From a virus: a DNA stretch of 27,869 nt. Location: the IMG/VR virus record IMGVR_UViG_3300007276_000230, positions 1 through 27,869 of that record; one strand, written 5' to 3'. Positions 7,982 to 27,869 of the stretch are shown in pieces. Numbering within the stretch: the stretch's first letter is position 1; each line of letters opens with the position of its first letter. A program made the translations under genes and the position numbers. The notes under the pieces were generated by a model. That model did not search any database and was not told the origin of the DNA. It saw only the letters and a program-made list of their open reading frames with translations.

Positions 7982-8844
7982 TTTATCCTTTCTCTTTACC
8001 TAAAGAATATTACGGCGACGATTTTCGTTGGTTTGTTGCAACGGTAGTCAACTCTACACCCCCCGCAGGTTTTGAAGGACGTGTTAGAATACGTGTCTAT
8101 GGTGTTCATAATCTTTACACCGGAGATGTTTCTGAAGCAGATCTTCCATGGGCACAGGTTTTGATACCTACTACCGAGGGTGGTATTTCTGGGTTGGGAA
8201 GAATATCACAACTTAGTGCTGGAAGTTTTGTGTTCGGTGTTTTTTTAGATGGTAAGACTTCTCAGGTTCCTTTGGTATTAGGCAGTTTCCCACGAATTGA
8301 ATTACCGTCAGAGGTACAGAGGAAGGATGGTAATCGTGAGTTTTCATTCGACTATGATCAAGAGAAACAGCAAAATGTTGTGGCGATAAAGATAGACAAT
8401 GATGAATCAAGAACTGGTAGATCAGTAGCAAGAAGAAGAAGTCAGTCCTTGAGATTCTTTATTGATAATGGTTACACTCCTTTACAGAGTGCCGCAATAA
8501 CAGGAAATTTAGAATCTGCTTCTAATTTTGAAACCTACGAAAGTACTGATAACGCAGACGCTATTGGTATTGGTCAATGGAGTGTGTTGAAAGACAATCG
8601 TTATAACAGACTAATTCAATTTGGTGCATTATTTGGTCCTACACAAACGTGGAAGTTATATTCGGTACAACTTCAATTTGTAATTTATGAACTAAGAACT
8701 ACTATGAATCTAGCAAACAAGAAATTACTTCAGGCAAAAACTATTGAAGAAGCATCAGAAGCAATCACCAAATATTATGTAAGAAAACCATTAGGCGGTG
8801 CAACAGAAAAATCACAATCCGCTTATGAAGAGGTTCTAGCATGA
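7978..8844 (+). CDS. Hub OB-fold protein with tail lysozyme domain (gp5 N-terminal analogue)
   Basis: The 288-aa protein has two domains. Residues about 14-105 look like the gp5/VgrG OB barrel (FEGRVRIRVYGVH, LPWAQVLIPTT, LSAGSFVFGVFLDG, VPLVLGSFP). Residues about 155-285 match the phage tail lysozyme family (PF18013): LRFFIDNGYTPLQSAAITGN followed by LESASNF with the likely catalytic E179, then AIGIGQWS and a C-terminal EEASEAITKYYVRKP. The family cuts peptidoglycan during infection. The start is GTG at 7978 overlapping the previous stop; the stop overlaps the next ATG. In T4 the OB, lysozyme and needle parts are one chain (gp5, 575 aa); here the needle is encoded two genes downstream. Confidence 0.8.
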   Translation: MIYPFSLPKEYYGDDFRWFVATVVNSTPPAGFEGRVRIRVYGVHNLYTGDVSEADLPWAQVLIPTTEGGISGLGRISQLSAGSFVFGVFLDGKTSQVPLVLGSFPRIELPSEVQRKDGNREFSFDYDQEKQQNVVAIKIDNDESRTGRSVARRRSQSLRFFIDNGYTPLQSAAITGNLESASNFETYESTDNADAIGIGQWSVLKDNRYNRLIQFGALFGPTQTWKLYSVQLQFVIYELRTTMNLANKKLLQAKTIEEASEAITKYYVRKPLGGATEKSQSAYEEVLA

Positions 8845-10727: not shown

Positions 10728-12187
10728 CAACTACTAAAGATAACATTGAAAAAAGAAGACAGGTTTTTGGCGAAGGTAAAGAAGAGACCCAAGGAATTCC
10801 GCGAACAGGATTTTCTGATGCGTCTGGTGAGTACCCTTCTCAAGAATACTATTTCGCAACCTCTACGAATAAAGCAGCAAAAGGCGAAACAACTACCAAG
10901 TTATATTCTAGTGGTGGCGATCTCGGTGTCTCGATAGAATTACCGGATCAAAAACCTTCTCAATATCCTTTCAATCAAGTTCAGCAAACTGCTACTGGTC
11001 ACTCTTGGGAAATAGACGATACTCCGGGCGGTGAAAGAATTATTATGAAACATCGCACAGGTTCAGGTCTTGAACTTAGAGCAGATGGGTCTATATTGTT
11101 CTCGGCAGTAAATAAAAAGGTTGAGGTTACCGGTGGTGACCATACTGTTATTGTAGAAGGTGAAGGTAATCTTGTTTACAAAGGAAATCTAAATGTTCGA
11201 GTTACCGGAGATTACAATCTTCAAGTAGATGGAAATGTAAACGTCACTTCTGCGGGAAATCGTGAAGATATTACTCATGGTAATTATACAACGAATGTAG
11301 ACAAAAACAGTAACCATACTGTCAAAGGATCTAAGCGAACTCAAGTAGTAGGAGAACATACCCATACTATTCTTGGAGGGAACAATCTATTTGTCAAGGG
11401 CGATCAACGGAACTGGGTTCAAGGTGATGTTGAACTTACCTCGGGCGGATCGCTTATCACCACTGCTGAAAAAGAATGGGCAGCATCATCCGAAACAACT
11501 AATATCACAGGTCTTACTGTATCTGTTCTTGGCACCAAAGGCACCATTGGTGGAACTTTGGTAGATCACTATGGCAAAGCATATTCAGGACCACCAGACG
11601 GAGAAGGAAACGGCGGCACAACGTTTTATGGAACTCTGGTAGGTAAAGCAGCAGAAGCAATCACGGCAGACTTCGCAAATTTAGCAGGGAATTCTGCTTA
11701 TGCTAAAGTAGCACCTGCGAAACTCGGCACTGCCGCCGAGGCGACAGCAACAGGAGAACCTAAGAAATACGAAACCATTTTTCCGTTCATTGAAACCGCA
11801 CCATCGGCACCGGAACCAACATCGGAACTTATCGTTCCTCATCTTGCCGTCAGTAATTTCGGTATCCGTAAAGTGGTTATAGATACAGACATTGATGATC
11901 CTAATTCTTTGATTGCGAAAATTCTAAAGACTGATGACTATGAAAAACTTTTTGATCGTGATCCTACCATCGATGAAATCAGATCTAAATTGAGAGACGA
12001 AGCGAACTTCAATAATAAAGCATTCACTGGTAAGTTAGTTGCTGCTGGTTTATTATCATCAGAATTTGCTAAAGCTACAGATGGGAAGATAGGAAGATCT
12101 TCTAATAACCGTAGACAGAAAAAGTTTGGTAATAAACCTATGGGTAACAACCCTGCTGATGTGAAAAGCAAGAGGTTTTGGATATGA
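10724..12187 (+). CDS. 5: Beta-helical membrane-piercing spike (gp5 C-terminal / VgrG-like)
   Basis: The 487-aa protein contains GHSWEIDDTPGGERIIMKHR and SGLELRADGSILFSA (about 85-130), which mark the spike neck of gp5/VgrG proteins. From about 130 to 270 follow short repeats with an alternating valine/glycine/asparagine pattern (VTGGDHTVIVEG, LVYKGNLNVRVTGDYNLQV, TVKGSKRTQVVGEHTHTIL), typical of the intertwined triple beta-helix. The rest (FYGTLVGKAAEAITADFANLA onward) has a Gly/Ala linker and a helical, basic C-terminus. In marine T4-like phages this type is usually labelled gp5. No lysozyme domain is present in this chain. It overlaps both neighbours by four bases. Confidence 0.8.
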   Translation: MTTTKDNIEKRRQVFGEGKEETQGIPRTGFSDASGEYPSQEYYFATSTNKAAKGETTTKLYSSGGDLGVSIELPDQKPSQYPFNQVQQTATGHSWEIDDTPGGERIIMKHRTGSGLELRADGSILFSAVNKKVEVTGGDHTVIVEGEGNLVYKGNLNVRVTGDYNLQVDGNVNVTSAGNREDITHGNYTTNVDKNSNHTVKGSKRTQVVGEHTHTILGGNNLFVKGDQRNWVQGDVELTSGGSLITTAEKEWAASSETTNITGLTVSVLGTKGTIGGTLVDHYGKAYSGPPDGEGNGGTTFYGTLVGKAAEAITADFANLAGNSAYAKVAPAKLGTAAEATATGEPKKYETIFPFIETAPSAPEPTSELIVPHLAVSNFGIRKVVIDTDIDDPNSLIAKILKTDDYEKLFDRDPTIDEIRSKLRDEANFNNKAFTGKLVAAGLLSSEFAKATDGKIGRSSNNRRQKKFGNKPMGNNPADVKSKRFWI

Positions 12188-12777: not shown

Positions 12778-13221
12778 ATGGCAAAATTACTTTCGACAGA
12801 AGATAAACAAGCACAGGGCGCATCGCTGATCACTAGTCGGCAGCGATTGTATTCTGATGTAGATCTGTCTTTAGAAGCAAATCCAAATACTGGCGATGTA
12901 TATAAGAAAACAGATGCTGCTGCTGTGAAACAAGCAATAAAAAATTTATTACAGACTAATCGATTTGAAAAACCGTTTAGACCTGATTTTGGGGCAGACC
13001 TTAGAGGATTATTATTTGAACTAGCAGATACGGACACTTCTGATGAATTAGAAGAACAGATTCGTGGATCTATTTTGAGATACGAACCTAGAGTCAATCT
13101 TATAAAATTAGATGTGAACACTTCTCTTGATCAGAATAGGTTAGATGTTAGAATAGAATTCTCTATTATAAACACAGATCAAAACATAACATTAGAGACA
13201 ACAGTTTCGAGGTTGAGATAA
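12778..13221 (+). CDS. 25: Baseplate wedge protein gp25
   Basis: The 147-aa protein matches the gp25 family (found in all contractile tails and type VI secretion as TssE): AVKQAIKNLLQTNRFEKPFR, PDFGADLRGLLFELAD with the EPR motif (RYEPRVNLIKLDV). gp25 ties the sheath start to the wedge core. Length is close to T4 gp25 (132 aa). There is no Shine-Dalgarno sequence before the ATG, and a late promoter box ends only six bases before it. The gp6 ATG follows its stop without a gap, with GAGG for gp6 inside the end of gp25. Confidence 0.93.
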   Translation: MAKLLSTEDKQAQGASLITSRQRLYSDVDLSLEANPNTGDVYKKTDAAAVKQAIKNLLQTNRFEKPFRPDFGADLRGLLFELADTDTSDELEEQIRGSILRYEPRVNLIKLDVNTSLDQNRLDVRIEFSIINTDQNITLETTVSRLR

Positions 13222-14994
13222 ATGGCAACAACAATCAATAGCACAGGTTTAGATTTCGATTCGATCCGAAATAATTTGAAAACTTGGTTAGAGCAGAAAC
13301 CTGAATTTGCAGACTATAACTTCGAAGCGTCAGGATTGTCTAATATTCTCGATGTACTTGCATACAACACACATTATAATGGGTTGATAGCTAACTTTGC
13401 TCTCAACGAATCTTTCCTGAGTACCGCTCAGTTGAGATCTTCGATGATTGGTCTCTCAACTGCTATTGGGTATATTCCAAACTCGAAAATATCTTCGATT
13501 GCTGTTATCAACGTAACCGCTAGTGGTACAGCTACTACTAGTAATTCTTTGAAACTTCCTGCTAACACCAAATTTACCACAACCGTTGATGATGTTGCAT
13601 ATACCTTTCAAACGACTAAGGACGCTACTGCTTTCAAACAGGGGTCTGGTCCATATTCTTACACGTGGGAAAATGTTACTGTTAGAGAAGGTATTGAAAA
13701 ACAAAAAACCTTTATTGCTGGTACTACTTCAGAAATTGACACCTACGTTATTCCTAACCAAGACATTGATATCAATACAGTCGAAGTGACTGTTGGTTCA
13801 ACTAATAAACAGTTTTATAATGTGAGTACAGTATCCGAGTTAGATCAGTTTTCAAGAATTTTTATTATCAAAGAAACCCCTAACGGATATTACGAAGTTG
13901 CTTTTGGTAACGGTGCTAGTCTGGGCGAAGTCCCTGTCTCAGGAGATAAAATTGTAGTGACCTATAACTCTTGTGCTGGTACTGCTGCGAATGGCGCGAG
14001 AACTTTTACTACTACCACTTCAATTCCAGGTGGTGATGGATCAAATCTTTCGATAATTCCAATAACCATTACAAATTCGTATGCTGGTGCTAACAAAGAA
14101 AGCATCGAATCTATTCGTAAAGCAGCGCCTTTTTTATATGCTGCACAGAATCGAATGGTAACCGCAGATGATTATGCTGCTCTTATCCGTAGAAATTTTT
14201 CAAGTCAAATTTCTGATATCCTTTGTTGGGGCGGTGAAGATAATATTCCTGCTCAGTATGGTGCTGTTTATGTTTCTATAACACCATCACCAACAGAATC
14301 GCTCAAAGCAGATATTCGTAAATTAGTGAAGAACTTAGCAGTAGTTGCTTTTGATGTAGTCTTCATAGATCCTATCACTACTTATGTAGAAGTCGATCTT
14401 ACTTTCCAATACAATCAAACGCTATCTTCGTATGCTACAATTCCAGAAATCGAGACTGTTGTCGGTAATGTTGTTTCTTCATATCTTGATACGGTAACCG
14501 ACGAATTTAGTGAAACCTTTAGACGATCTAACTTATTGACCCTTGTAGACGCTTCGGATCCCGGTGTATTGTCTAGTCAAGCAGCAGTAAAAATTCAACA
14601 ACGTTTTGTGCCTGTACTTGGGATTTCGACTGCTTACACACTTGCGTTCCCTGCTTCTATTACAGCACCTTCCGTAACTTCATATGCAATATCTTCATCA
14701 GAATTTATTGTCAGGGGAACAACGTGTATCTTGAGAAATCGATTAGGTTCAAATGTTCTTGAAATACTTTCTGTAGTGACAGGTAAAATAATTATTGATA
14801 ACGTAGGTAATTATGACGCAGCATTAGGAACGGTAAATATTTCCGGTTTCACTCCATCTGCGTTTTCTGGAACTTCAATAAAAGTTACGGTGGTTCCTGC
14901 TAATCAAGGAAACATTTCTACTCTTCGTGAGAATAAATTAGGTAAAGACCCAATTGCAATAACAACGAATGCAATCGAAACAACAACCCTATAA
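13222..14994 (+). CDS. 6: Baseplate wedge protein gp6
   Basis: The 590-aa protein starts with the gp6 signature (LDFDSIRNNLKTWLEQKPEF, NILDVLAYNTHYNGL, ALNESFLSTAQLRSS). It carries the gpJ-like domain found in all contractile-tail wedges (KAAPFLYAAQNRMVTADDYA, ISDILCWGGEDNIPAQYGAV, VAFDVVFIDPITTYVEVDL). gp6 forms the inner iris-like ring that opens during contraction and binds gp25, gp7 and gp53. T4 gp6 is 660 aa. It is in one transcription unit with gp25. The gene ends shortly before a late promoter that drives the next wedge genes. Confidence 0.92.
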   Translation: MATTINSTGLDFDSIRNNLKTWLEQKPEFADYNFEASGLSNILDVLAYNTHYNGLIANFALNESFLSTAQLRSSMIGLSTAIGYIPNSKISSIAVINVTASGTATTSNSLKLPANTKFTTTVDDVAYTFQTTKDATAFKQGSGPYSYTWENVTVREGIEKQKTFIAGTTSEIDTYVIPNQDIDINTVEVTVGSTNKQFYNVSTVSELDQFSRIFIIKETPNGYYEVAFGNGASLGEVPVSGDKIVVTYNSCAGTAANGARTFTTTTSIPGGDGSNLSIIPITITNSYAGANKESIESIRKAAPFLYAAQNRMVTADDYAALIRRNFSSQISDILCWGGEDNIPAQYGAVYVSITPSPTESLKADIRKLVKNLAVVAFDVVFIDPITTYVEVDLTFQYNQTLSSYATIPEIETVVGNVVSSYLDTVTDEFSETFRRSNLLTLVDASDPGVLSSQAAVKIQQRFVPVLGISTAYTLAFPASITAPSVTSYAISSSEFIVRGTTCILRNRLGSNVLEILSVVTGKIIIDNVGNYDAALGTVNISGFTPSAFSGTSIKVTVVPANQGNISTLRENKLGKDPIAITTNAIETTTL

Positions 14995-14997
14995 ATA
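14990..14997 (+). promoter_or_regulatory. T4-type late promoter (TATAAATA) before the gp8-like gene
   Basis: A perfect late box overlapping the end of gp6. The predicted start is near 15003, leaving an 18-base leader before the ATG at 15021. It probably drives the genes up to 23123. Confidence 0.8.
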
Positions 14998-15020
14998 AGA
15001 AATTATACCGGTAGAAAATA

Positions 15021-16466
15021 ATGACAGCAATAGTAACAGAACAATTTATTAGTCAACTTATAAAAGACACGAAAGAAAGTTTATCTGGCAATGTCTATAT
15101 TGGGTTAGGTAGGTCTTTGACATGGAACAATGTTGCTGAATTGGATCCAGAAACGCCTTTTGCTCCAACGAATGATTTTGAATATGCTAGAGAAGCACGT
15201 TCTGCTTGTCAACACGTAAAGATTGCGACTGGAATATCTGCTGCAATTACTCGACAAGATTGGGTTGCAGATACTAAGTATTCAGCGTATGATGATGCTC
15301 CTTGGACTTCTATACCTTTCGATGCAGAAGCAATACCTTACGTAATGAATTCAAACTACGAAATCTTTTTATGTGTACAACAAGGAGTTGACGCAAGCGG
15401 TAACGTTATTCCTAGCACAGTAGAACCGCTGAAAGCAAATTTACCAGCACCTCTTTCGAACCCTGTTCTTGCCGGTGAAAACGTACTTGTCACCCTCGAC
15501 GATGATGGTTCACCTGGATATACTTGGAGATATTTGTTTACGCTTAGTCAGGTGGCAGTAAATCGTTTTCTGACTTCTAACTTTATTCCGGTAACAACTT
15601 TTACTGCTGATCCGTTAGATCAACTTGTTCAGACAGAACAATGGCAAATCCAACAGATTTCACAACCGGGTCAGATCTTGAATATCAAGGTTATTGACGG
15701 TGGTGCAGGTTATGCTAACGATGTGTCTTCAAGTGTCTTAGGTAACGCTGTTGCCCCTAATCTCGCAACAACGATTACTAACAATATTGGTGGTGTGATT
15801 GCATCTATAGAAGTCCCTGTCACAGGTTTAGGTTACGACTATGCTTCTGTAAAAATCAATCCTGGTTCGAATAACCCTACCGAAGATGCGACTGTCAGAC
15901 CTGTGATTGGTCCTAATTTAGGAATCGAAGCAGATCCTATTGTTACCCTAAAAGCAAATTCAATTATTGTCACAACAGATTTCGAAAACGACGAGTTTGA
16001 TACTCTTTTGACAGAGAACGATTTTCGACAAATTCTTCTTTTGAAAAGTCCAACCGTTTATGATGGTTCTACTGCCTTTTTACAATCTACGGGTAAAGCA
16101 AACCGCGCATTGATTTGTACTGGTGCACCTCCTGTAGGAACTGTAGATGAAGATCTGGTCATGACGGGTCAAACTAGTCAAGCACAGGGTATAGTCGATT
16201 ACTTCGAAAATAGCACAAATCTTTACTATCATCAGACTCCTACCACAGGGTACGGAACTTTTTTACGCGGCGAACCGGTAGAAATTGCTGGTTCTGGTGG
16301 GGCGGTTGTAACACTTACTGGTGCCGCATCATCAACAATTGCAGCAAATCAAGTCGATCCTGCTCTAGATATTTTCTCTGGCGAATTGTTATACATAGAC
16401 AATATTGCACCAATTTCCAGAGACCCTAACCAAACCGAAGATATAAAAATAGTTATAACTTTCTAG
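15021..16466 (+). CDS. 8: Baseplate wedge protein, gp8-like
   Basis: The 481-aa protein has the N-terminal pattern of marine gp8 homologues: VYIGLGRSLTWNN, a helix with ARSACQHVKIATGIS, ITRQDWVADTKYSAYDD, then YEIFLCVQQG, STVEP and GYTWRYLFTLS. The C-terminus ends in EDIKIVITF. The middle contains two Gly-rich beta motifs (VIDGGAGYAND and VTGLGYDYASVKI). T4 gp8 (334 aa) is a wedge part that contacts gp6, gp7 and gp10; this one is longer because of the middle. The following gene starts eight bases later with AGGATAAG as ribosome-binding site. Confidence 0.75.
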   Translation: MTAIVTEQFISQLIKDTKESLSGNVYIGLGRSLTWNNVAELDPETPFAPTNDFEYAREARSACQHVKIATGISAAITRQDWVADTKYSAYDDAPWTSIPFDAEAIPYVMNSNYEIFLCVQQGVDASGNVIPSTVEPLKANLPAPLSNPVLAGENVLVTLDDDGSPGYTWRYLFTLSQVAVNRFLTSNFIPVTTFTADPLDQLVQTEQWQIQQISQPGQILNIKVIDGGAGYANDVSSSVLGNAVAPNLATTITNNIGGVIASIEVPVTGLGYDYASVKINPGSNNPTEDATVRPVIGPNLGIEADPIVTLKANSIIVTTDFENDEFDTLLTENDFRQILLLKSPTVYDGSTAFLQSTGKANRALICTGAPPVGTVDEDLVMTGQTSQAQGIVDYFENSTNLYYHQTPTTGYGTFLRGEPVEIAGSGGAVVTLTGAASSTIAANQVDPALDIFSGELLYIDNIAPISRDPNQTEDIKIVITF

Positions 16467-16474
16467 GATAAGTC

Positions 16475-19400
16475 ATGCCAAATACGTATAATAACGAAAC
16501 ACTGTCTACCGTCTATAATGACGATTTTTCGGAAACAGACGGTTATCATAAGATTCTTTTTAATTCTGGTCGTTCTCTACAAGCAAGAGAACTAAACCAA
16601 TTACAAACCATAATTCAAGAAGAACTTACTCGGTTTGGTAAAAACATCTATAAAGAAGGTGCAGCAGTTTCTGCTGGTGCGATTGAAATTGATAATAACT
16701 ATCGATTCGTTAGGGTTACTGGTACCGGTGTTGAAGATCTTGCTGTAGGTTTAGAACTAACTGGTGCTACTACTGGTGTAACGGCAAAAATATTAGAAGT
16801 GGTAGAACTGGGCAGTGGTGATGCCAGATTGTATATTAGATATACGGGTTCAGGCACTGTAGCAGTTGGTACAACTGAAATTACTTTTGCTTTGACAGAG
16901 ACTATATCTGCTGCTGGGTTTACTGGTACAGTGGGATCTTCCTCATCCGATATTGGTGCTGGGGTAAGAATTATTGTAGACACCGGTGACTTTTTCGCTG
17001 CTGGAAGGTTTGTACATGCAACTAAGCAAAGTCTTATTGTATCGGCAACAAGCAGAGTTTACACCGGAACCGTTGGGTTCAAAATTGTTCAAGATGTCAT
17101 TACAGTAAATGACACTCAGGCGTTATATGATAATACTGGTGGTACTCCTAATGTATCAGCACCAGGTGCTGATCGATGGAGAATTCGTTTAGTATTGGTA
17201 GACAAGGATCAAGCATTACAATTCAATCCGACTGACGATTCTTTTATATTTCTGTGTAGAGTAGTAAACTCGCAGATCGTACAACAAATTGATGAACGCG
17301 ATAATTTCAACGTTGTCAACGATATGCTCGCGCAGCGCACATATGAAGAGTCTGGTAACTATATCGCAGAACCTTTTCAACTTACCTTTGAAGATGATGA
17401 TAGTACAGATTCAGATATCTTCGCAGTTGTTGGTCCTGGTCTTGCCTATGTGAAAGGGTTTAGAGTAGAAAACGAATATCCGATGAAACTGAAAACTCCT
17501 CGCCCACAGGCATACGAAACAGTGCCTAGCGATTTTGTTGCGGTTGACTACGGAGCATATGTTATTTCAAAAGCATCTGCTTTCAAATTCAATCCTTTAT
17601 TGCAATCTGAAAACGGCGAAAGACAAGTCAATTTACGAAATGCTGTTGCATACGGTGGGTCAACCATCGGAACCGCTCACATAAAGGCAATAGAAAAAGA
17701 AACTTCTACTACGTTTAGAGTGTATCTGTCTAATATTGAGATGACTTCTGGTCAAGACTTTGACGATGTTGCGTCTATAGGTACTAGTGCTAGTAGTGTA
17801 TTTGACCTGAAAGATGTTGGCAGAATCTATAAGAACGATAAGTCTACTTCGTTATATCCTCTTCCGACTATACGTCCACAGTCTCTCGAAAACTATGAGT
17901 TCACTTACACTTTAGGTTTCACCATTGTAGCAGGTTCGAGTCAACTTTCTTCGGGTACTGTTTTATCGGGTACAGATGCTTTTGTCAATGTTGATGCATG
18001 GATTCTGACTAAAATTTCAGACGGTGCAATAGTTTCTCTTACGACTGGTAATATTACTAACAATGGTCAGAGTTTTATAATCCCTTCAAATGCAGCAACG
18101 GTTGTCAATGGTGATAGTTATCATGTCACTGCTCAAGTTAGTAGAAACAATGCGACGAGACGTATCAAAACTTTGACAACTGCAACGGTATCAGGCGGAT
18201 GGTCTATAACCGAAGGCGTGATCTACAAAGATTTAGGTTACTATGATGTGTATGAACTAGTTAGTGTTACCTCAGACGGGACCGATATTACTGACCTTAT
18301 TCAACTTGATAATGGTGCCCGAGACACGCATTTTGAAACAGCAAGGGTTATAAAACAAGGGCCATTCGATACCTCCGGACCAACCTTTTCTTACACCTTT
18401 ACTTATTGGGACTGGTCTAATGACGAGTTTGATGGCGGCACCGGTTTATATGCGGATGCCTTTTCCTATGCTGTAGATTACACACAGGTTCCAAAACATA
18501 AATTATCTTCAGGCGAAATTATCTCCCTAACAGATTTTGTAGATTTTCGCGGAAAGAAAACTGCAACACATATTGAGGCACGTAATCCTGTAGAGGGAGT
18601 GCCTATTCAAGTAGATGCTTCCTACTATTATTCTCGTGCTGATAAATTGATCGTAACAGAAGACGGAGATTTTCAAATTCTTCTGGGTCAACAAGCAAGA
18701 GAACCTTTGTTCAAAAAGACTCCTAATAACTCGTTAGAATTGTATAAGATCGTAATGAATCCGAACACTCTTAGTCCGGAAGATATCAATACAACTTTCA
18801 TCGAACATAAACGTTATACGATGGCAGATATTGCTAAACTCGAAAGGAAGTTAGATAATCTTGAAGAATTGTATCAACTTAGTTTTGCCGAATTGGAAGC
18901 TAAACTCAATCCTAAATTAGATCCGGTATCCGGAGAACCTAAAAACGAAACCGGATTGATGATTGATGATTTCACTGATCATACAGGATCAGATGTAAAC
19001 GACGATGATTTCAAAGCATCTATTGATCCGGAAAATAAAGTTTTGAGACCAATGATTGATGACAACAATATTAGATTGATCTATAGACCTTTCGATGCTG
19101 CTGATACTTCTCCGAATGGACCTCAGTACAGTTCACAGAACACCATCAAGAAAGGCGACAATGTCTATATCAATTATACAGAATCGGCGTGGGTAAGTCA
19201 ACCTTTGGCAACCGAATCTATTGCTATCAATACTAACGGTAAAGTAGATTATGTTGGAGATATTACCTTATCCCCATCATCAGACGAATGGAAATCTAGA
19301 GCGTATGGCACACGTGCTGTTGGTGGTGCGTCAAGACTTTCTACGAATGAAGCATTCCTTTACAACTCACATCAATGGAATTGGTTGGGTCGAGGTGTTG

Positions 19401-21859
19401 AATCGCAAGAAGTTGGTGGATCAAACTTCGGCGGATGCGGTAAATCCTTGGGGCGTAAAGGTAATCTAGAGCGTAATAAAAGAAATACTAGCACCGGAAG
19501 ATTCTCTGGTCGAGGCGCAACGGGTGGTCATGTTCAAAGAGTAGTATCCAGCGAGTCTATTAGGACTGTAAGTGGTCAGAATCGAGTAGTTGATGTTGCT
19601 ATTGTCCCTTGGTTGAGATCACGTAAAATTTATTTTACTGCAAAGGGTCTGAAACCGAACACCACCTTTATTCCGTTCTTTGACGGTAAAAACGTGTCTA
19701 CGTGGTGTAAATCAGAATCCTTTGTAAGATATGCTGATAGAACAGACGCATCTGCCGATTTAGGGAATAATGGGGAACAGTATTCTCAACATCCTGACGT
19801 TCCGTCTGCTTTGATCTCCGATGCCAACGGAGAAGTTTCGGGTTCTTTCTTTATTCCTAGTATTAGACAAAGTTTTATTAGAACGTCTAATGGTTTACCT
19901 AAAATCAGTAGTAACGTACCAGTAAGATTCAAAGCAGGGAAACGAGAATTCAAATTGATGGACATAAATGTTCCAGATCATAATCAAGCGGGTAGTTATG
20001 CTATCGGCACTTATAATGCGTCTGGCATGATAAGTACCACGAACGATAATATGACCACAACACGACACCCAAGAAAATTGAATATGGGAAAAATTCTGCG
20101 TATGGGTGCTGGCAGCATTGCTGGGGTTAACCAAAAAGAAACTAAAGCGTATCTTGATGCCATTCCCAGTTCATCCGTAAACTTTATTGCTCCTCATGTG
20201 TCTGGTGGATGGGGTGGAGATTTTCCTGGCGATATCAACCTCGGTTCTATAGCAAATATGTCAACAGTTTTGTCTGATTATATTGCAGTAGATCAAAATT
20301 CACAAGCAGGTACATCATCATCTCCAAATAGCGATGTGTCTCTACCGTTTGCACAGACGTTTACGATTGATAATCAATTTGGTGTGGTCCTCACAAAAAT
20401 TGATTTGTATTTCGAGCAAAATGATGGGGCAACGGGTTTGCCAGTTTCAATTGAGATCGTTCCTATGGAAGGAAATGTTCCGGGATCTAATGTCGTGCCC
20501 GGATCTACGGTTACTCTCAATTCTTCACAAGTCGCAACTAGCACCACTGCTGCTACCGCTACTACATTTGCTTTTGATGAACCCGTATATCTGAACCCTA
20601 AAACAACTTATGCTTTAGTTGTTCGAACTCAATCAGAAGCATATAAAATATGGATTGCAAAATCTGGCGATTATGCTGTTGGGTCTCAGGGTAAGATTGT
20701 TTCATCGCAAGCAGCGTCAGGGCAATTATTTCTTCCATCATCTAAGGCGACTAAATTCTCTAAAGAATTGGACCTTTCGTTTGTTATGCATAGAGCAGTT
20801 TTTGAGACTAACGCATCTGTAGTATTACGTAATGCTGAACTGCCAGGAAACTTATTGGATAAAAATCCTATTGTTCTAAACAGCGGTTCCGCATATGTGT
20901 ATGTAAGACATGACTGTCATGGTCTAAACGTTGGCGAGAGTGTTATTATCAGTGGGGTACCGGTTGGTTCTTATGGTTCTCTCAGTGAAGCAGATCTGAA
21001 CGGTACTAAAACTGTTACTGCTATAGACGCGGCAGGGTTCAGGTTTGCGACTAGTGATCCTGGTATTGATGCTAACGTAGGCGGAACTGCTGTTATATCT
21101 TCAAGGAATTACAATTTCGTAACCTGTAATCCACAACTTGAAACTATTATTCCTAATAAATGTTCGATTGATGTGACTGCTAGATTCACTACAGGTAAAT
21201 CTAACGGTGGGACTGAGACGAAATTTATCAAAGATACTGCTTACTCACGAATTGTACCCGACGAAAATAATGAATTCACCGCACCTCGTATTATAGCACA
21301 GCGCATTGAAGAAACTACTCAAGCTTCGATTGGTGCTTCTGGTTCAGGTGGTTATTCAGTAGATGTGAAAGTAGATCTGAAATCGTCTAATGATTATGTT
21401 TGTCCTATTGTAGATTTGCAACGAGCATCTTTAGTTATGGTTCAAAATTGTATCGACGATGAAAATGCTGTTTATCTTACTGGTGCTGGTGACGGTGAAA
21501 CAAATTCAAAAAATACAAGTGGTCCGTCGAAACATATTACTGCACCACTTGAAACTGTCGAACCTTCTAAATCATTAGAGGTTGTAGTAGAAGCACAGGT
21601 TCCAAAAATTGCGAATCTGGATTTTTACTATAGAGCAGCTCTGGCAGGTCAGAACATTTTAGATGTATCATGGACACCTGTTACACCGGTTTTACCTGTA
21701 GTAAAAGACAACGATAAGACCGCTATGAGACCTATAAAAATCGAAGCGTTGGACATTCCTGCCTTTACGACATCACAGGTCAAGACTGTTTTCAAATCTC
21801 CTAGTATGGCAGAGGTTCCTCAGATTGGAAGAATTCAACATAGGACATTCCTTCAGTGA
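16475..21859 (+). CDS. Giant baseplate structural protein with DUF4815 (gp7/gp10-like role)
   Basis: The 1794-aa protein is the largest complete gene here. Residues about 1-770 fit DUF4815 (PF16075): HKILFNSGRSLQARELNQLQ near the start, YYSRADKLIVTEDGDFQILL near 715, and a closing coiled coil (MADIAKLERKLDNLEELYQL, about 780-800). Residues about 1015-1200 hold SGQNRVVDVAIVPWLRSRKI and related strands known from marine phage wedge proteins. About 1270-1400 looks like a jelly-roll (FAQTFTIDNQFGVVLTKIDL, VYLNPKTTYALVVRT). About 1478-1540 is a small beta domain (HGLNVGESVIISGVPVGSYG). It probably takes the place of gp7/gp10 and carries fibres, by inference. Its TGA overlaps the next start (GTGA). 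Confidence 0.7.
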   Translation: MPNTYNNETLSTVYNDDFSETDGYHKILFNSGRSLQARELNQLQTIIQEELTRFGKNIYKEGAAVSAGAIEIDNNYRFVRVTGTGVEDLAVGLELTGATTGVTAKILEVVELGSGDARLYIRYTGSGTVAVGTTEITFALTETISAAGFTGTVGSSSSDIGAGVRIIVDTGDFFAAGRFVHATKQSLIVSATSRVYTGTVGFKIVQDVITVNDTQALYDNTGGTPNVSAPGADRWRIRLVLVDKDQALQFNPTDDSFIFLCRVVNSQIVQQIDERDNFNVVNDMLAQRTYEESGNYIAEPFQLTFEDDDSTDSDIFAVVGPGLAYVKGFRVENEYPMKLKTPRPQAYETVPSDFVAVDYGAYVISKASAFKFNPLLQSENGERQVNLRNAVAYGGSTIGTAHIKAIEKETSTTFRVYLSNIEMTSGQDFDDVASIGTSASSVFDLKDVGRIYKNDKSTSLYPLPTIRPQSLENYEFTYTLGFTIVAGSSQLSSGTVLSGTDAFVNVDAWILTKISDGAIVSLTTGNITNNGQSFIIPSNAATVVNGDSYHVTAQVSRNNATRRIKTLTTATVSGGWSITEGVIYKDLGYYDVYELVSVTSDGTDITDLIQLDNGARDTHFETARVIKQGPFDTSGPTFSYTFTYWDWSNDEFDGGTGLYADAFSYAVDYTQVPKHKLSSGEIISLTDFVDFRGKKTATHIEARNPVEGVPIQVDASYYYSRADKLIVTEDGDFQILLGQQAREPLFKKTPNNSLELYKIVMNPNTLSPEDINTTFIEHKRYTMADIAKLERKLDNLEELYQLSFAELEAKLNPKLDPVSGEPKNETGLMIDDFTDHTGSDVNDDDFKASIDPENKVLRPMIDDNNIRLIYRPFDAADTSPNGPQYSSQNTIKKGDNVYINYTESAWVSQPLATESIAINTNGKVDYVGDITLSPSSDEWKSRAYGTRAVGGASRLSTNEAFLYNSHQWNWLGRGVESQEVGGSNFGGCGKSLGRKGNLERNKRNTSTGRFSGRGATGGHVQRVVSSESIRTVSGQNRVVDVAIVPWLRSRKIYFTAKGLKPNTTFIPFFDGKNVSTWCKSESFVRYADRTDASADLGNNGEQYSQHPDVPSALISDANGEVSGSFFIPSIRQSFIRTSNGLPKISSNVPVRFKAGKREFKLMDINVPDHNQAGSYAIGTYNASGMISTTNDNMTTTRHPRKLNMGKILRMGAGSIAGVNQKETKAYLDAIPSSSVNFIAPHVSGGWGGDFPGDINLGSIANMSTVLSDYIAVDQNSQAGTSSSPNSDVSLPFAQTFTIDNQFGVVLTKIDLYFEQNDGATGLPVSIEIVPMEGNVPGSNVVPGSTVTLNSSQVATSTTAATATTFAFDEPVYLNPKTTYALVVRTQSEAYKIWIAKSGDYAVGSQGKIVSSQAASGQLFLPSSKATKFSKELDLSFVMHRAVFETNASVVLRNAELPGNLLDKNPIVLNSGSAYVYVRHDCHGLNVGESVIISGVPVGSYGSLSEADLNGTKTVTAIDAAGFRFATSDPGIDANVGGTAVISSRNYNFVTCNPQLETIIPNKCSIDVTARFTTGKSNGGTETKFIKDTAYSRIVPDENNEFTAPRIIAQRIEETTQASIGASGSGGYSVDVKVDLKSSNDYVCPIVDLQRASLVMVQNCIDDENAVYLTGAGDGETNSKNTSGPSKHITAPLETVEPSKSLEVVVEAQVPKIANLDFYYRAALAGQNILDVSWTPVTPVLPVVKDNDKTAMRPIKIEALDIPAFTTSQVKTVFKSPSMAEVPQIGRIQHRTFLQ

Positions 21860-22098
21860 GCAATATTGATTGGAGTAATTACATACCAGTTGAAGGGTAT
21901 CCTCATCATTATCGAGATAAGCGAAATGGTGCTATCATAAATATGAATATGGATGAATTCGAACGTGCACGTATAAAAGAAAAACTTCGCCTTGAAAAAA
22001 TCGAAGAAGAAAAAGCACTGAAGACCCAAGTAAGTAAACTAGAAAATGATATGACAGATATCAAAAATATGCTGATGACACTGATGGAGAAAAACTAA
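21856..22098 (+). CDS. Small coiled-coil protein of the baseplate operon
   Basis: The 80-aa protein begins SNIDWSNYIPVEGYPHHYRD and has a short hydrophobic turn (NGAIINMN). Its C-terminal half is a charged coiled coil with heptads (IKEKLRLEKIEEEKALKTQV, then SKLENDMTDIKNMLMTL). I recall small proteins of this shape in marine T4-like genomes but know no function. The start is GTG at 21856, overlapping the stop of the giant baseplate gene by four bases; its TAA overlaps the next ATG by one base. The coupling suggests it is made together with the large protein and could be an assembly helper or a connector. It is too short for a real family call. Confidence 0.75.
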   Translation: MSNIDWSNYIPVEGYPHHYRDKRNGAIINMNMDEFERARIKEKLRLEKIEEEKALKTQVSKLENDMTDIKNMLMTLMEKN

Positions 22099-23123
22099 TG
22101 ACTGTTTTGTACAATATGGGACCACATCATCAGTGGAGATTTTCTACTGCCGCTGACCATGACTGGATGCAGGAATGTAGAGATGATTATTTTGATAAAA
22201 AAGTTCAAGGCGAAACAGATGTTGATAGTTTCACCAATGTGAATGTTACTGGACCTACAAATAATTTTATCTGGCAGTACCATGATCATTACCCCGATGA
22301 AACTGTGGACTTCGCTTATTTCAAAGACAAACATGGAATGGATGCTACTCAAATACTAGAGTTTCGAGAGAACTCTAAAATGCATCTTCTGGGCGTTATT
22401 TTTGTAGATAGAGCAACTGGTAATGATATTGGATGGGTTTACTTCGATGTTCGAAAATTTAGTTTAGAGGAATGTACATCTTGGAATGTTCCTGATTCTT
22501 GTGCGGGTAAGTGGTTTTATAGAAACCGGGCGATTGCCGTTCACCCTGATTTTAGAGGACAAGGGCAACTGTCATGGTTTTATTTTATGTGGGGTGTTGG
22601 TGCTCTAAAAAATATGAAACCATGGGGAGCAGATTTAGGTGGGCATATCATCCAAGTAGATCCATGGGACGAAAATCGGACGAAAAGCATACCCGGCAAA
22701 ACGAATTCTAATTACAATAAAAAGATGCTTCCGGACGGTACATTTGCTAGTAATAGGTTGGAATGGCATAAATCTCAACAGGTTATGGATATAACCGGTG
22801 ACGCTAACACGACTATCACTAGTATTCCAGATGTAGTAAATAGTCAAAGTATTGCAACATATGGTGCGGATAAATCACCTGAAATGTTAGTGGTTCGAAT
22901 TCCCTCCGCTGAAGTTAAAGCAGCATCAATCGAGAATGGTACTGCTGAAGCACATGCATGGTGGATGAACTGTGCGAATGATTTATCATTAGATCCTGAT
23001 ACCGGTAAATTATATTATAATGGACCAGAGCAAGATGAGACTAAAACTGTCCGATCATTGAAAAAAGCAGCACAGATACAACGACCAAATAAATTGAACT
23101 GGGCAGACGAAAACTTCTACTAA
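22098..23123 (+). CDS. GNAT-like fold protein in the structural operon
   Basis: The 341-aa protein is rich in Trp, Tyr and His near its start (MTVLYNMGPHHQWRF). Residues 143-163 (NRAIAVHPDFRGQGQLSWFY) match motif A of GCN5-related acetyltransferases, where V-x-P-x-[FY]-R-G-x-G binds acyl-CoA; the last glycine of the usual R-G-x-G-x-G is Leu. A preceding segment (LLGVIFVDRATGNDIGWVYF) fits the two strands that come before motif A. The C-terminal third has a Trp/Asp-rich stretch and no motif I know. It sits inside a late operon of virion genes, between a coiled-coil protein and the fibre, so it may modify a virion protein or be a fold reused for structure. Enzyme activity is not shown. Confidence 0.65.
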   Translation: MTVLYNMGPHHQWRFSTAADHDWMQECRDDYFDKKVQGETDVDSFTNVNVTGPTNNFIWQYHDHYPDETVDFAYFKDKHGMDATQILEFRENSKMHLLGVIFVDRATGNDIGWVYFDVRKFSLEECTSWNVPDSCAGKWFYRNRAIAVHPDFRGQGQLSWFYFMWGVGALKNMKPWGADLGGHIIQVDPWDENRTKSIPGKTNSNYNKKMLPDGTFASNRLEWHKSQQVMDITGDANTTITSIPDVVNSQSIATYGADKSPEMLVVRIPSAEVKAASIENGTAEAHAWWMNCANDLSLDPDTGKLYYNGPEQDETKTVRSLKKAAQIQRPNKLNWADENFY

Positions 23124-23165: not shown

Positions 23166-26100
23166 ATGTCATCACGTCCCCTAAAAAGTATTGGTACCGG
23201 CGCACTACAGGAGTTGTCTCTTTCTGAAGAGGATTATCTTGCGTATCGTGCTGGTATTCATTTGGGTCAGATTCAGACAACCGATGCTTCTGCTCTAACT
23301 TTAGATGACACTAAAAGTCCTATCGGATCTTTTTTCGATACCTTCTATACCGGCAGTGGTACAGTTGATACCAAGGTCTACGATCTAGGTAATGCCACCG
23401 CAGATGTTGATATTTCTGGGGGTGTTATATCTTCAAGTATAACTTCAAGTTCTCTTGCTCCTCCTCCCGATACTATTCAGATTGGCGATAAATTAACGTT
23501 TACCGCTACTATAAACCGTGATATTGAAGTAGGAGCAGACCTCGACAATCTCGGTTTGTTTGTTGAAGTCTTTACGAATGGTGTAGCAAACACAGGCGCA
23601 ATCGTATTAGTTGATAACCTTACTCCTTCTGGAATAACGCAAACTACCGGTGCTTCATGGTCTCCAGCGACAGGCGGGAACACCGGTACAGGCACTAACT
23701 CTGCTGATTTTACTATCATAGCAGAACAAGCAGGTTCGTTGGTTATATGGTTTACTGTTATAGGATCGGATAACGATATCGGTGTTTTCCCTGATGGATT
23801 TACGCAGTCTCAGCAAAGCAACTTTATCTTTGTTACAGTTGGAGACGCACCTGGTACATATAGAGAAGATGTCACCCTTGATATCGATACGGACACCACG
23901 GTAAATTTAGGCGATGTATTTACAAGCACTATAATCGATGTTGAAGTAACTAATGATTCTATAGTCTCTTATAACCAAGCAAGTTCTACTAATACTGCCG
24001 CATATAATTGGTATTGGCAAGGTGAAGGTCCATTTCCAAGTGCATTGAGAGGTCAAATTCTTGTAACCGGTACTGGATCATCTACTGCGCGTTTTGTAGA
24101 AGGTGTTGGCGGTGGGTCTGTTACGTTGCAGTGGAACGGTGTAGCTGCACCTGTCGATCCGAACGAAAACGTTGAATTGAATACTTCTGCTACAACGCTT
24201 TATCAAAATTTATCTTCTGTCGCGGCTCAAAGAAATGACAACGACTGGAGAGGTATTGTTCAGTGGGACACAACACAGTCTCCACCCGGCATCAAAGAAA
24301 TGTCAGATGCCGAGTTAGATATTCTGGTAGAGCGACTGGTCAAGACGATTATGGAGAACGAGTACCCAGGTACTTTCCGTCTTGCTTCTTCTGTACCTAG
24401 TGGGGATTGGACATCGTATCTCCCTAATGTTTTTACCGACACTCGAAACGATGGTACGGTTCAAACCTATTCTATTTACATAAAATCCGGAATGACTTCT
24501 CCTACACCAGCGAAACCTATTACGATAGAAAGATCGTCTGGCAGTACTGGTACTTTTTCAGGTCTAAAGCAAGGAAGTGAATCCGTAATATCTACCACTT
24601 TAGGCGAACGATCAAAAGAGATTATAAAATCAACAGGTATCGGAACTTATCAATTACGATCTTCTGCTCAAGGTGCTCCGACTGAGCCTGGTGTTTGGGT
24701 TCCCAGAGGGATAGCAGTAGACACAAGAAACGCTACAGTATATTCAGAAAACGTTGATAACTACTTTGCAGATTATGCACTTGATTATATTGGCAACTTC
24801 ATAGGTGATACAAATCCTACGATTAATTTTACTCAGCAATATGAAGACGATATATTTTATGAAGGCGACTTCATTCTAGACACTCCGTATGAAGGAGACT
24901 TCATCCTTGATATATTTTATGAAGGGGACTTCATCCTTGATATATTTTATGAAGGAGACTTCACCGCTGACTTCATCCTCGATACAGAGTATGAAGGCGA
25001 CTTTATAGCAGATTACATTCTCGATATAATTTATGAAGGCGACTTCATTGCAGATTTTATACTTGATATACTGTATGAAGGGGATTTCATAGCAGACTTT
25101 ATACTTGATATATTTTATGAAGGCGATTTCATTGCTGACTTCATTCTGGATATTCAGTATCAGGATGAAACCAATCCGACAATAGATTTTTTTGGTGAGA
25201 CTAATCCAACTATTACACCTGCAATACAGTTTTTTGGTGAGACTAATCCTACTATACAATATTTTGAGGAAACTAATCCGACTACGAATCCTACTATACA
25301 ATATTTCGGCGAAACTAATCCGACTACAAATCCTACTATACAATATTTTGAGGAAACTAATCCGACTACGAATCCTACTATACAATATTTCGGCGAAACT
25401 AATCCGACAATAGATTATTTCGGCGAAACTAATCCGACTACAAATCCTACTGAACAATACTTTGGTGACACGAACCCTACGGCAGATTACTTTGGTGAGA
25501 CGAATCCGACTACGAATCCGACAATACAATACTTTGGTGAGACGAACCCTACTATACAATACTTTGGTGAGACGAATCCGACTACGAATCCGACAATACA
25601 ATATTTCGGCGAAACTAATCCTACGATAAATTACGTAGGTGATGCGGATTTTATTGGTGACACTGATTACATTGCCAACTATGTTGGAACAAGTGAAACT
25701 AACTTTACTGAACCATATCTTGCAGAACCAAATGCAACAATAAATTATATTGGTAATGCTGATTTCATTGCTAACTACGCACAAGCAATTCCTTATATTG
25801 GTAACACTAATCCTCAGATAAATTATTTTGGGGAAATCAACTACATTGGTAATTTTGTTGGTAATGTAAATTATGTGGGCAACACCAACCCTCAGATAGA
25901 CTACATTGACAATGTAAATTATATTGGAGATTTTGTTGGTAATGTAAATTATGTGGGCAACACCAACCCTCAGATAAACTATCAGTATAACTTTGATTAC
26001 ATTGGTGATTTTGTACGAGATCTACAATACTTTGCGGAACCTAACAATGCACCACCTTACATATATGATTTTCCATACGTTGGGGATTTCATATACACTA

Positions 26101-27869
26101 TTAATTACATAGGAGATGGGTTTCAGGAAGTGCCGTACATTGGGGATATTATTACCAGTGTACCGTATAACGCAGAACCAACACCTAGCGCACCTTATGT
26201 CGGTAACACCAATCCACAAATAAACTACTTTGCTGAAGTAAATTATATTGGAGATTTTGTTGGTAATGTAAATTATATCGGTAACACTAATCCACAAATA
26301 AACTACATTTACAATCTAAATTATATTGGAGATTTTGTTGGTAATGTAAATTATATCGGTAACACTAATCCACAAATAAACTACATTGATAATGTAAATT
26401 ATATTGGTAACAGCCCCACAACAATAAATTATATTGGTGACGCAACATATTTTGCGGAAACGTCAAATCCTCAGTTAGATCCTGCAACTAAGCAGCTTGT
26501 AGATTATATTGGTAACGTTGGGTATACCAGGCAGACACCTTATATATTCAACACATCCATCGCTACACCATACGTTGATGATATTCCTTACGTTGGTGAT
26601 TTTGTACGAGATTTGCCATACTTTGCGGAACCTAACAATGCAGTACCTTACATATATGATTTTCCTTACGTTGGTGATTTTGTACGAGATTTGCCATACT
26701 TTGCGGAACCTAACAACGCACCACCATACATTGACGATGTTCCTTACCTTGGTGATTTTGTACGAAATGTAAATTACATTGGGAACTTTCAAGGTAACGT
26801 GCAATACTTTGCGGAACCAAACGCAACCACCGATTATATCGGTACTGTGAAAACGGCATTTCCTTATATCGGGGATTTGAACGCTACAATAAACTACATT
26901 TACAATCTAAATTATATTGGAGATTTTGTTGGTAATGTAAATTATGTTGGTAACACTAATCCGCAAATAAACTATCAGTACAATCTAGATTATATTGGAG
27001 ATTTTGTACGAGATCTACAATACTTTGCGGAACCTAACAATGCACCACCTTATATTGACGATATTCCATACATCGGTGATTTTGTTTTAGATCTTCAATA
27101 CTTTGCGGAACCAACAGCAGCGCCTCCTTACATTGGGGATACTCCTTACCTCGGTGATTTTGTACGAGATTTAGACTATATCGGAAATGCTGCGGGTTCT
27201 GCACCTTTCATTAGTGATATACCTTATGTCGGGGATTTTATTGGTAACGTTGATTACATTGGTGATTTTTTAGGAAGTGTAAGTTCTGCAAACATTTCGA
27301 TTTTTATTATATTTTTCCAAGGCTCGCAATCAAACGCAGAGAACGCTCCTCTTTCTGGTGGGTCTGTAACATATACAGGAGCCGCCAATGGTGGTGATAC
27401 AGTAACGGTTACATTTTCTAATGCTCTTGGCGCTGCTAATTTTCATAGTGGTATTATTGCTTCTTCTTCGAATGTTTTAAATATTAGTGGTAGTGCTGCC
27501 GGTAGTACTTCTCATGTTTTCAAAATAAATACTTTGTCGCCATGGTTTGTTACATACGTCCAAACTCAGACTGGAACAAAAGCGGGTACTTATTATGCAC
27601 ATCTTGAAGGGATAGCTGATAACGATTCTGGTGGTACAGATACTACTGCACCGTTTGTTCAAGCAACACCATATATTGAAGAGACAGATTATATCGGGGA
27701 CTTCATCCTTGATACTGATTATGTCGGCGACTTCATTGCTGACTTCATCCTTGATACTGATTATGTAGGCGACTTCATCCTTGATACTGATTATGTTGGA
27801 GACTTCATTGCTGACTTCATTCTAGACACTTTATATGTCGGGGACTTCATCCTTAATACTGATTATGTC
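23166..27869 (+). CDS. Giant repeat tail fibre/adhesin, 3' end beyond window
   Basis: One uninterrupted frame of 1568 codons runs from ATG 23166 to the right edge without a stop. The N-terminus (MSSRPLKSIGTGALQEL, EEDYLAYRAGIHLGQ) resembles that of marine T4-like virion proteins. Residues about 95-220 and 235-345 look like Ig-type beta sandwiches. About 375-530 holds DAELDILVERLVKTIMENEY and IGTYQLRSSAQGAPTEPG, a block I recall from fibre proteins of marine myoviruses. From residue 559 the chain is made of short aromatic-led repeats in blocks, with one beta-domain island (about residues 1374-1502). I see no Cys, and Lys is rare in the repeats while Asp, Asn, Glu and Tyr dominate. The likely role is a long fibre that touches the host; this is inference. 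Confidence 0.85.
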   Translation, partial: MSSRPLKSIGTGALQELSLSEEDYLAYRAGIHLGQIQTTDASALTLDDTKSPIGSFFDTFYTGSGTVDTKVYDLGNATADVDISGGVISSSITSSSLAPPPDTIQIGDKLTFTATINRDIEVGADLDNLGLFVEVFTNGVANTGAIVLVDNLTPSGITQTTGASWSPATGGNTGTGTNSADFTIIAEQAGSLVIWFTVIGSDNDIGVFPDGFTQSQQSNFIFVTVGDAPGTYREDVTLDIDTDTTVNLGDVFTSTIIDVEVTNDSIVSYNQASSTNTAAYNWYWQGEGPFPSALRGQILVTGTGSSTARFVEGVGGGSVTLQWNGVAAPVDPNENVELNTSATTLYQNLSSVAAQRNDNDWRGIVQWDTTQSPPGIKEMSDAELDILVERLVKTIMENEYPGTFRLASSVPSGDWTSYLPNVFTDTRNDGTVQTYSIYIKSGMTSPTPAKPITIERSSGSTGTFSGLKQGSESVISTTLGERSKEIIKSTGIGTYQLRSSAQGAPTEPGVWVPRGIAVDTRNATVYSENVDNYFADYALDYIGNFIGDTNPTINFTQQYEDDIFYEGDFILDTPYEGDFILDIFYEGDFILDIFYEGDFTADFILDTEYEGDFIADYILDIIYEGDFIADFILDILYEGDFIADFILDIFYEGDFIADFILDIQYQDETNPTIDFFGETNPTITPAIQFFGETNPTIQYFEETNPTTNPTIQYFGETNPTTNPTIQYFEETNPTTNPTIQYFGETNPTIDYFGETNPTTNPTEQYFGDTNPTADYFGETNPTTNPTIQYFGETNPTIQYFGETNPTTNPTIQYFGETNPTINYVGDADFIGDTDYIANYVGTSETNFTEPYLAEPNATINYIGNADFIANYAQAIPYIGNTNPQINYFGEINYIGNFVGNVNYVGNTNPQIDYIDNVNYIGDFVGNVNYVGNTNPQINYQYNFDYIGDFVRDLQYFAEPNNAPPYIYDFPYVGDFIYTINYIGDGFQEVPYIGDIITSVPYNAEPTPSAPYVGNTNPQINYFAEVNYIGDFVGNVNYIGNTNPQINYIYNLNYIGDFVGNVNYIGNTNPQINYIDNVNYIGNSPTTINYIGDATYFAETSNPQLDPATKQLVDYIGNVGYTRQTPYIFNTSIATPYVDDIPYVGDFVRDLPYFAEPNNAVPYIYDFPYVGDFVRDLPYFAEPNNAPPYIDDVPYLGDFVRNVNYIGNFQGNVQYFAEPNATTDYIGTVKTAFPYIGDLNATINYIYNLNYIGDFVGNVNYVGNTNPQINYQYNLDYIGDFVRDLQYFAEPNNAPPYIDDIPYIGDFVLDLQYFAEPTAAPPYIGDTPYLGDFVRDLDYIGNAAGSAPFISDIPYVGDFIGNVDYIGDFLGSVSSANISIFIIFFQGSQSNAENAPLSGGSVTYTGAANGGDTVTVTFSNALGAANFHSGIIASSSNVLNISGSAAGSTSHVFKINTLSPWFVTYVQTQTGTKAGTYYAHLEGIADNDSGGTDTTAPFVQATPYIEETDYIGDFILDTDYVGDFIADFILDTDYVGDFILDTDYVGDFIADFILDTLYVGDFILNTDYV
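24840..25157 (+). repeat. Fibre repeat block A: YEGDFI...LD units
   Basis: Nine consecutive units by hand parse: lengths 6, 10, 10, 10, 14, 14, 14, 14, 14. The 10-residue form is YEGDFILDIF; the 14-residue form is YEGDFIADFILDIF, made by adding one tetrapeptide of the ADFI type. The total (106 residues) fills the block exactly. Confidence 0.9.
25158..25631 (+). repeat. Fibre repeat block B: YFGETNPT units
   Basis: Thirteen units with lengths 10, 14, 10, 14, 14, 14, 10, 14, 10, 14, 10, 14, 10. The short form is YFGETNPTIQ and the long form YFGETNPTTNPTIQ, differing by one TNPT tetrapeptide. No unit has another length. Codon choice shifts between copies (act/acg, aat/aac), so copies are not all recent. 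Confidence 0.9.
25632..27284 (+). repeat. Fibre repeat block C: mixed 6- and 10-residue units with 26-residue super-repeat
   Basis: By hand parse 62 units, nearly all of 6 or 10 residues, starting with Tyr (or Phe). Main types are YIGDFVGNVN, YIGNTNPQIN, YVGDFVRDLP, YFAEPNNAPP (10) and YIDNVN, YIYNLN, YQYNFD, YIDDIP (6). They often follow the order 10-10-6, giving a 26-residue (78-base) higher-order repeat. Exceptions are one 16-residue stretch near 25668 and one 19-residue unit near 26448. Confidence 0.88.
27285..27671 (+). other. Non-repeat beta domain inserted between fibre repeat blocks
   Basis: About 129 residues without the aromatic-led repeat: SANISIFIIFFQGSQSNAEN, GGSVTYTGAANGGDTVTVTF, ASSSNVLNISGSAAGS and SPWFVTYVQTQTGTKAGTYY. 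It looks like an Ig-type or bacterial-adhesin-type sandwich, rich in Ser, Thr and Gly. The family cannot be named by eye. The frame continues on both sides. Confidence 0.6.
27672..27869 (+). repeat. Fibre repeat block D: YVGDFI...LDTD units
   Basis: After the inserted domain the repeats restart as YIEETD (6), YIGDFILDTD (10), YVGDFIADFILDTD (14), YVGDFILDTD (10), YVGDFIADFILDTL (14), YVGDFILNTD (10) and continue past the edge. It is a relative of block A with Val or Ile in place of Glu at the second position. Confidence 0.88.

Follow-up and report, generated by a model that had tools for sequence, protein, structure and literature searches.

The C-terminal triple-stranded beta-helix of T4 gp5 is built on the pattern VxGxxxxx, with an even repeat length of 8 and a ladder of Asn and Asp on its surface (PMC4576200). 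In the stretch of viral DNA considered here (IMG/VR record IMGVR_UViG_3300007276_000230, 27,869 nucleotides, hereafter the window), a giant gene encodes an apparent tail fiber that resembles the gp5 helix as a putative beta-type phage shaft with hydrophobic-x-Gly beside Asn/Asp and an even repeat length. It differs in having units of 6, 10 or 14 residues (multiples of four in many relatives), led by an aromatic residue rather than Val, in a far longer array and without a lysozyme. The VxGxxxxx octapeptide itself is absent as a unit from the window, where the 6/10/14 units begin with Tyr. Collagen-like phage fibers share the low complexity and, by analogy, may share hydroxylase or glycosyltransferase partners, but Gly gaps in the window protein are of 4, 6, 10, 14 and 16 residues rather than falling at every third residue.

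Two annotated phage proteins also bear comparison. The structural protein AON97608 of the Synechococcus phage S-RIM2 (Kyanoviridae; L087:1417-7155) contains arrays of an x-T-G-[ND] tetrapeptide (VTGN), although it has no Tyr, begins with an Mtd_N domain and lies next to neck genes instead of the gene trio described below; its similarity to the fiber is weak only, at E 8e-4. The PDB matches of the VTGN array to T4 gp5 were kept as a lead only, as they are at least partly driven by composition, because unrelated G-x-x-x proteins score higher. S-RIM2 also carries a 19-kb hypothetical gene with baseplate genes on either side (55138-74274; L169:15139-34275). The one annotated phage homologue found by tblastn, and a true one, is WJE88074 of phage C48C1 (Kyanoviridae), annotated as a hypothetical protein, with an N-terminal domain 42% identical, aromatic repeats, a C-terminal YTLYVRVA, the same downstream trio (d1-d2-d3), and tail chaperone and LtfC-like neighbors. 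It is unlike the window protein in spacing its repeats by multiples of four, in the repeats themselves (Y-T-R-x and x-x-G-N) and in its length of 3347 aa.

Against Pfam and PHROG the fiber protein matched no named family, the only hits being sub-threshold ones to DUF4562 and Nucleoporin_FG. PDB sequence searches with the whole protein, a profile of the N-terminal domain and the C48C1 repeats returned nothing relevant, a DNA-level search of phage records gave no match, and no host or prophage turned up when bacterial and archaeal genomes were scanned. The literature on Tyr-rich or tetrapeptide phage repeats, on C48C1 and on fibers with hydroxylases or glycosyltransferases, subscription journals being mostly outside its scope, held nothing on this family. 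The fiber is a new family within a known kind, the phage tail fiber, with a testable length law. Fibers determine which cells a phage binds, and some 80 marine phage genes, whose short repeats run into the hundreds, exceeding 3,700 aa at the longest and followed by a constant trio, are a large unexplained piece of ocean virus anatomy.

Gene context and parts of the fiber

The window is a contig of a T4-like marine myovirus, with genes for a DNA end protector, tail tube, head closure and baseplate. The features leading to and within the fiber gene are as follows.

12778..16466, + strand: baseplate wedge subunit genes
16475..21859, + strand: VrlC-like structural protein (DUF4815, phrog_358; the VrlC name is inferred from position and size)
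21856..22098, + strand: 80-aa gene, kept upstream of the fiber in 15 loci of the set
22098..23123, + strand: 341-aa gene directly before the fiber, of a family shared only with the L002/L003 relatives
23166..27869, + strand: giant tail-fiber-like gene, 1568 aa, running off the contig end
23166..24731, + strand: N-terminal globular region (AlphaFold2 model, family profile)
aa 60-330 (window clade): Ig-like beta-sandwich domains, as modeled
24207..24731, + strand (aa 348-522): family domain, the conserved part, from the profile
24840..27281, + strand (aa 559-1372, 814 aa): main repeat array (block 1), units of 6/10/14
24840..25160, + strand: sub-block YEGDFILDxx / YEGDFIADFILDxx (10 and 14), boundaries approximate
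25161..25630, + strand: sub-block YFGETNPTIQ / YFGETNPTTNPTIQ (10 and 14), boundaries approximate
25631..27281, + strand: sub-block YIGDFVGNVN / YIGNTNPQIN / YIDNVN (10 and 6), with a 26-residue super-period of 10+10+6
27282..27644, + strand: non-repeat insert domain, 121 aa, Ser/Gly/Thr-rich, also in L002
27645..27869, + strand (aa 1494-1568, 75 aa): second repeat array, reaching the contig end

In pelagimyophages, the genes following VrlC are tail fibers in most genomes (PMC7029224). Many relatives of the window have a Phage_tail_APC chaperone before the fiber and an LtfC-like gene for L-shaped-tail-fiber assembly after the trio. The VrlC-like and baseplate genes upstream, together with these neighbors, lead to a tail-fiber reading, the preliminary description having proposed a fiber, and the context is good evidence that the product would be a tail fiber with dedicated partners. 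In the window clade, the position taken by the tail chaperone in many relatives is occupied by the family of the 341-aa gene, whose members are of 325-352 aa, occur in one or two copies (5888-7859 in L002, 6896-7954 in L003) and have no family match above the cut-off. Elsewhere in the window, a protein of 628 aa (8841-10727) that carries an N-acetylmuramoyl-L-alanine amidase domain at its C-terminus adjoins a gp5-like gene (10724-12187); the pair may represent a tail lysin split over two genes.

The record consists of just the 27,869-base contig and the fiber reading frame is open at its end, cut before the C-terminal motif and the trio. The closest relative, L002, has both; it is complete at 2120 aa, and C48C1 is complete at the length given above. 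The preliminary description had taken everything from 24840 onward as fiber array; this stands for the repeats, but the 121-aa insert lies outside the array. Most of the N-terminal 520 residues could be modeled with AlphaFold2, the family domain largely at high confidence. Foldseek matched the N-terminal model mainly to Ig-like and cupredoxin beta-sandwiches, the TM-scores over the whole chain being low, and no match was recognized for the family domain. That domain, with its signature GxYQLRSS-QG-P---G-W, is found in the window, in L002-L086 and in C48C1.

Spacing of the repeats in the window and its relatives

Beyond the N-terminal domain, Tyr-Tyr gaps of up to 20 residues in the window protein are even in 96 cases and odd in 3, while shuffled versions of the protein average 48% even gaps, with a maximum of 61%. 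A dynamic-programming parse places 87% of block 1 in Tyr-led units of 6, 10 or 14 residues (shuffle maximum 36%, n=200); alternative unit sets of 5/9/13 and 7/11/15 cover 0% and 4/8/12 covers 18%. These 74 units (42 of 10 residues, 20 of 6 and 12 of 14) comprise 56 distinct sequences. Allowing Phe to lead as well raises coverage to 96% of block 1 in 81 units, and the last block adds 7 more, in good agreement with the roughly 90 units, nearly all of these lengths, counted in the preliminary description. The stretches left over from the Tyr-led parse include YFAETSNPQLDPATKQLVD, whose 19 residues contain a Tyr step of odd length, and a handful of units led by Phe. Position by position, a unit is a number of tetrapeptides like [YF]-x-G-[DNE] plus one dipeptide, as in YIGD-FVGN-VN, YFGE-TNPT-TNPT-IQ and YIDN-VN. 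The array is tandem at the DNA level, with a super-period that differs by block (10, 14, 26).

More direct support for a two-residue alternation than the unit lengths give comes from the placement of Gly and Asp/Asn. Counting from the preceding Tyr, Gly makes up 20.9% of the positions at even offsets (64 residues) versus 0.3% at odd offsets, while Asp/Asn makes up 39% at odd offsets and 4% at even ones.

Searching viral contigs with a profile of the N-terminal domain gave 80 loci, and aromatic arrays follow this domain in nearly all of those that are long enough, the longest stretches exceeding 3,700 aa. Between 72 and 98% of Tyr gaps are even in representative homologues, rather than spreading over odd and even values alike, and this evenness is common to clades with almost no repeat sequence in common. 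Gaps are mostly 6, 10 and 14 only in the window clade (the window, L002 and L003/L004); elsewhere the share of gaps divisible by four is 65-96%, with lengths mostly of 4, 8 and 12. The family-wide quantum is therefore a tetrapeptide ([YF]-x-[GR]-[ND]-like), and each unit of the window clade carries one extra dipeptide, so that the "6 + 4n" rule proposed at first applies to the window clade and gives way to 4n in the rest of the family. The evenness, although strong, has exceptions: the claim that the alternation is never broken agrees with the mostly even gaps but fails in L018, L079 and L017, where one 5-residue step, most often every 29 residues (six tetrapeptides plus five), breaks parity. 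Strong identity autocorrelation marks L020, L011, L026 and C48C1 at 12 residues and multiples of 12, and L010 and L056 at 28; in the arrays of L011, L020 and L026 the 12-residue super-period, three tetrapeptides, is very strong. Near the C-terminus of most complete relatives, by eye, is the motif xxYTLYxRxA (for example ETYTLYVRVA), a similar motif lying about 280 residues before the protein end in L002 (L007) and L010.

Insertions and deletions follow the same parity. In all close pairs, 106 of 106 well-flanked repeat indels are even; in disjoint pairs 28 of 28 are, 21 of them multiples of 4, bearing out the earlier suggestion of growth in steps of four. In the comparison set of neighboring genes, 3 of 19 indels are even. 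The parts of the fiber proteins classed as non-repeat have three single-residue indels and one even one (44), the latter being repeat sequence that fell under the density threshold. Such even-only indels are a rare length law, read from DNA, that predicts a testable two-faced beta strand.

The evenness could instead be a mutational relic, left where slippage or unequal exchange expanded 4-, 6- or 10-residue seeds without selection on the fold. The arrays are indeed tandem, as noted above, and indels mostly comprise whole units or their multiples. In-phase recombination accounts for part of the indel evenness, because most long indels are whole repeats. It leaves unaccounted for the evenness across clades with unlike repeats and the 2-residue indels that do not amount to a whole unit, of which four were seen in disjoint pairs (they come from two related pairs and are possibly two events counted twice), with none of 1 or 3 residues. 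The parity of Gly and Asp/Asn is also maintained, and the variety of sequence among the 74 units likewise speaks against a relic, which we consider unlikely as the explanation.

Possible folds of the repeats

We think it rather probable that the gene encodes the shaft of a giant tail fiber of a T4-like (Kyanoviridae-type) marine myovirus, consisting of a two-faced beta chain matured with the help of the downstream trio. The repeats would form a beta-stranded chain with two distinct faces, one of aromatic, Gly and aliphatic residues and the other mostly of Asp, Asn, Gln, Glu and Thr. Its winding is probably that of a trimeric beta-helix or beta-prism. If the facing must be kept, insertions would be tolerated only in pairs or fours, and recombination among repeats could change fiber length quickly with the fold intact. 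We infer the beta structure from the alternation of the sequence rather than from a model: the repeats, as a monomer, reached a pLDDT of 31-35 in AlphaFold2 with no confident model, the repeat segment (mean pLDDT 31) having been run with a pseudo-alignment of shifted repeats. Of the regular beta fold in the preliminary description, then, the two-residue alternation of Gly and Asp/Asn is supported, while its solenoid or zipper form received no confident model. In our judgment a trimeric beta-helix or beta-prism fits best, because three identical chains could take on a different unit length at each successive level.

A fixed-coil solenoid formed by a single beta chain, with for instance 12 residues per coil (three four-residue sides) or 28-29, appears improbable. 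The autocorrelation at 12 and at 28 and the 29-residue super-repeat of L018 suit such a coil, and it fits those relatives with 12- and 28-residue super-periods. It does not fit the window, where mixed unit lengths of 6, 10 and 14 and a super-period shifting between blocks would be hard for one coil to hold; AlphaFold, given the chain, returned no confident solenoid. Still less probable is a disordered, sticky aromatic polymer, like FG repeats or a hydrogel, acting as flexible glue or spacer. Low complexity, the low pLDDT of the repeats and the sub-threshold Nucleoporin_FG match (E 0.042) agree with it, yet a disordered chain has no need for parity of Gly, Asp/Asn and Tyr or for even-only indels. 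A chain of beta-hairpins, in which 6, 10 and 14 would be two strands of 2, 4 or 6 plus a 2-residue turn and growth by four would keep the register, fits the lengths (2+4k) and the recurrence of the turn-forming dipeptides NP, GN and GD in the window units, but is at odds with the 4n clades, whose spacing leaves no place for a 2-residue turn, and seems to us very unlikely.

The downstream trio

Returning to the two-faced shaft, the fiber in relatives is followed by three genes, d1 (about 150 aa), d2 (about 245 aa) and d3 (about 230 aa), found in 25, 25 and 24 loci, respectively, of those that reach far enough (14460-17206 in L002). The exceptions are L017 and L050, where the downstream genes differ or are cut. 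Starting the search from d3 instead, which has 488 relatives in viral contigs, d1-d2-d3 is present in 77 of the 80 best of these 488; in the same best 80, the reading frame before d1 has even-spaced aromatic repeats in 72 of 76, and nearly all such frames have an xxYTLYxRxA-like end. The trio also comes after frames in which such repeats are scarce or absent (L164, L128 and L167), those of L128 and L167 having neither even-spaced aromatics nor an xxYTLYxRxA-like motif. Among 50,697 phage records, the fiber domain, d1 and d3 all occur only in C48C1. That the same three genes nearly always follow the fiber marks an undescribed fiber system, not a mere sequence curiosity.

The d2 protein has an invariant D-x-D; 12 of 15 members match Glycos_transf_2, with weak scores (best E 4e-4), and no PDB match was found. 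It is a probable glycosyltransferase, GT-A-like. In d3, H127, N129, H188 and R196 are invariant in 39 sequences (H-x-N...H...R, with Asn in place of the Asp of the H-x-D...H...R active-site pattern of 2OG-Fe(II) oxygenases); no convincing match was found in Pfam, PHROG, NCBIfam or the PDB, and it is this motif, picked out by eye, that makes d3 appear hydroxylase-like. Collagen is modified by hydroxylases and glycosyltransferases. By analogy, the trio could help the fiber to mature, d2 and d3 perhaps modifying residues in the repeats, and it would open phage fiber modification to testing. A bolder version, which we offer tentatively and rather doubt, is a new type of beta fiber with a tetrapeptide step, free unit length at constant parity and collagen-like maturation by a dedicated glycosyltransferase and hydroxylase, in a four-gene cassette that would have spread among marine myoviruses and would tune length by in-phase recombination.

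Amid the tail-fiber genes of L002 there is also a gene for a subtilase-family protein (L002:19667-21472; Peptidase_S8, E 5.7e-13).
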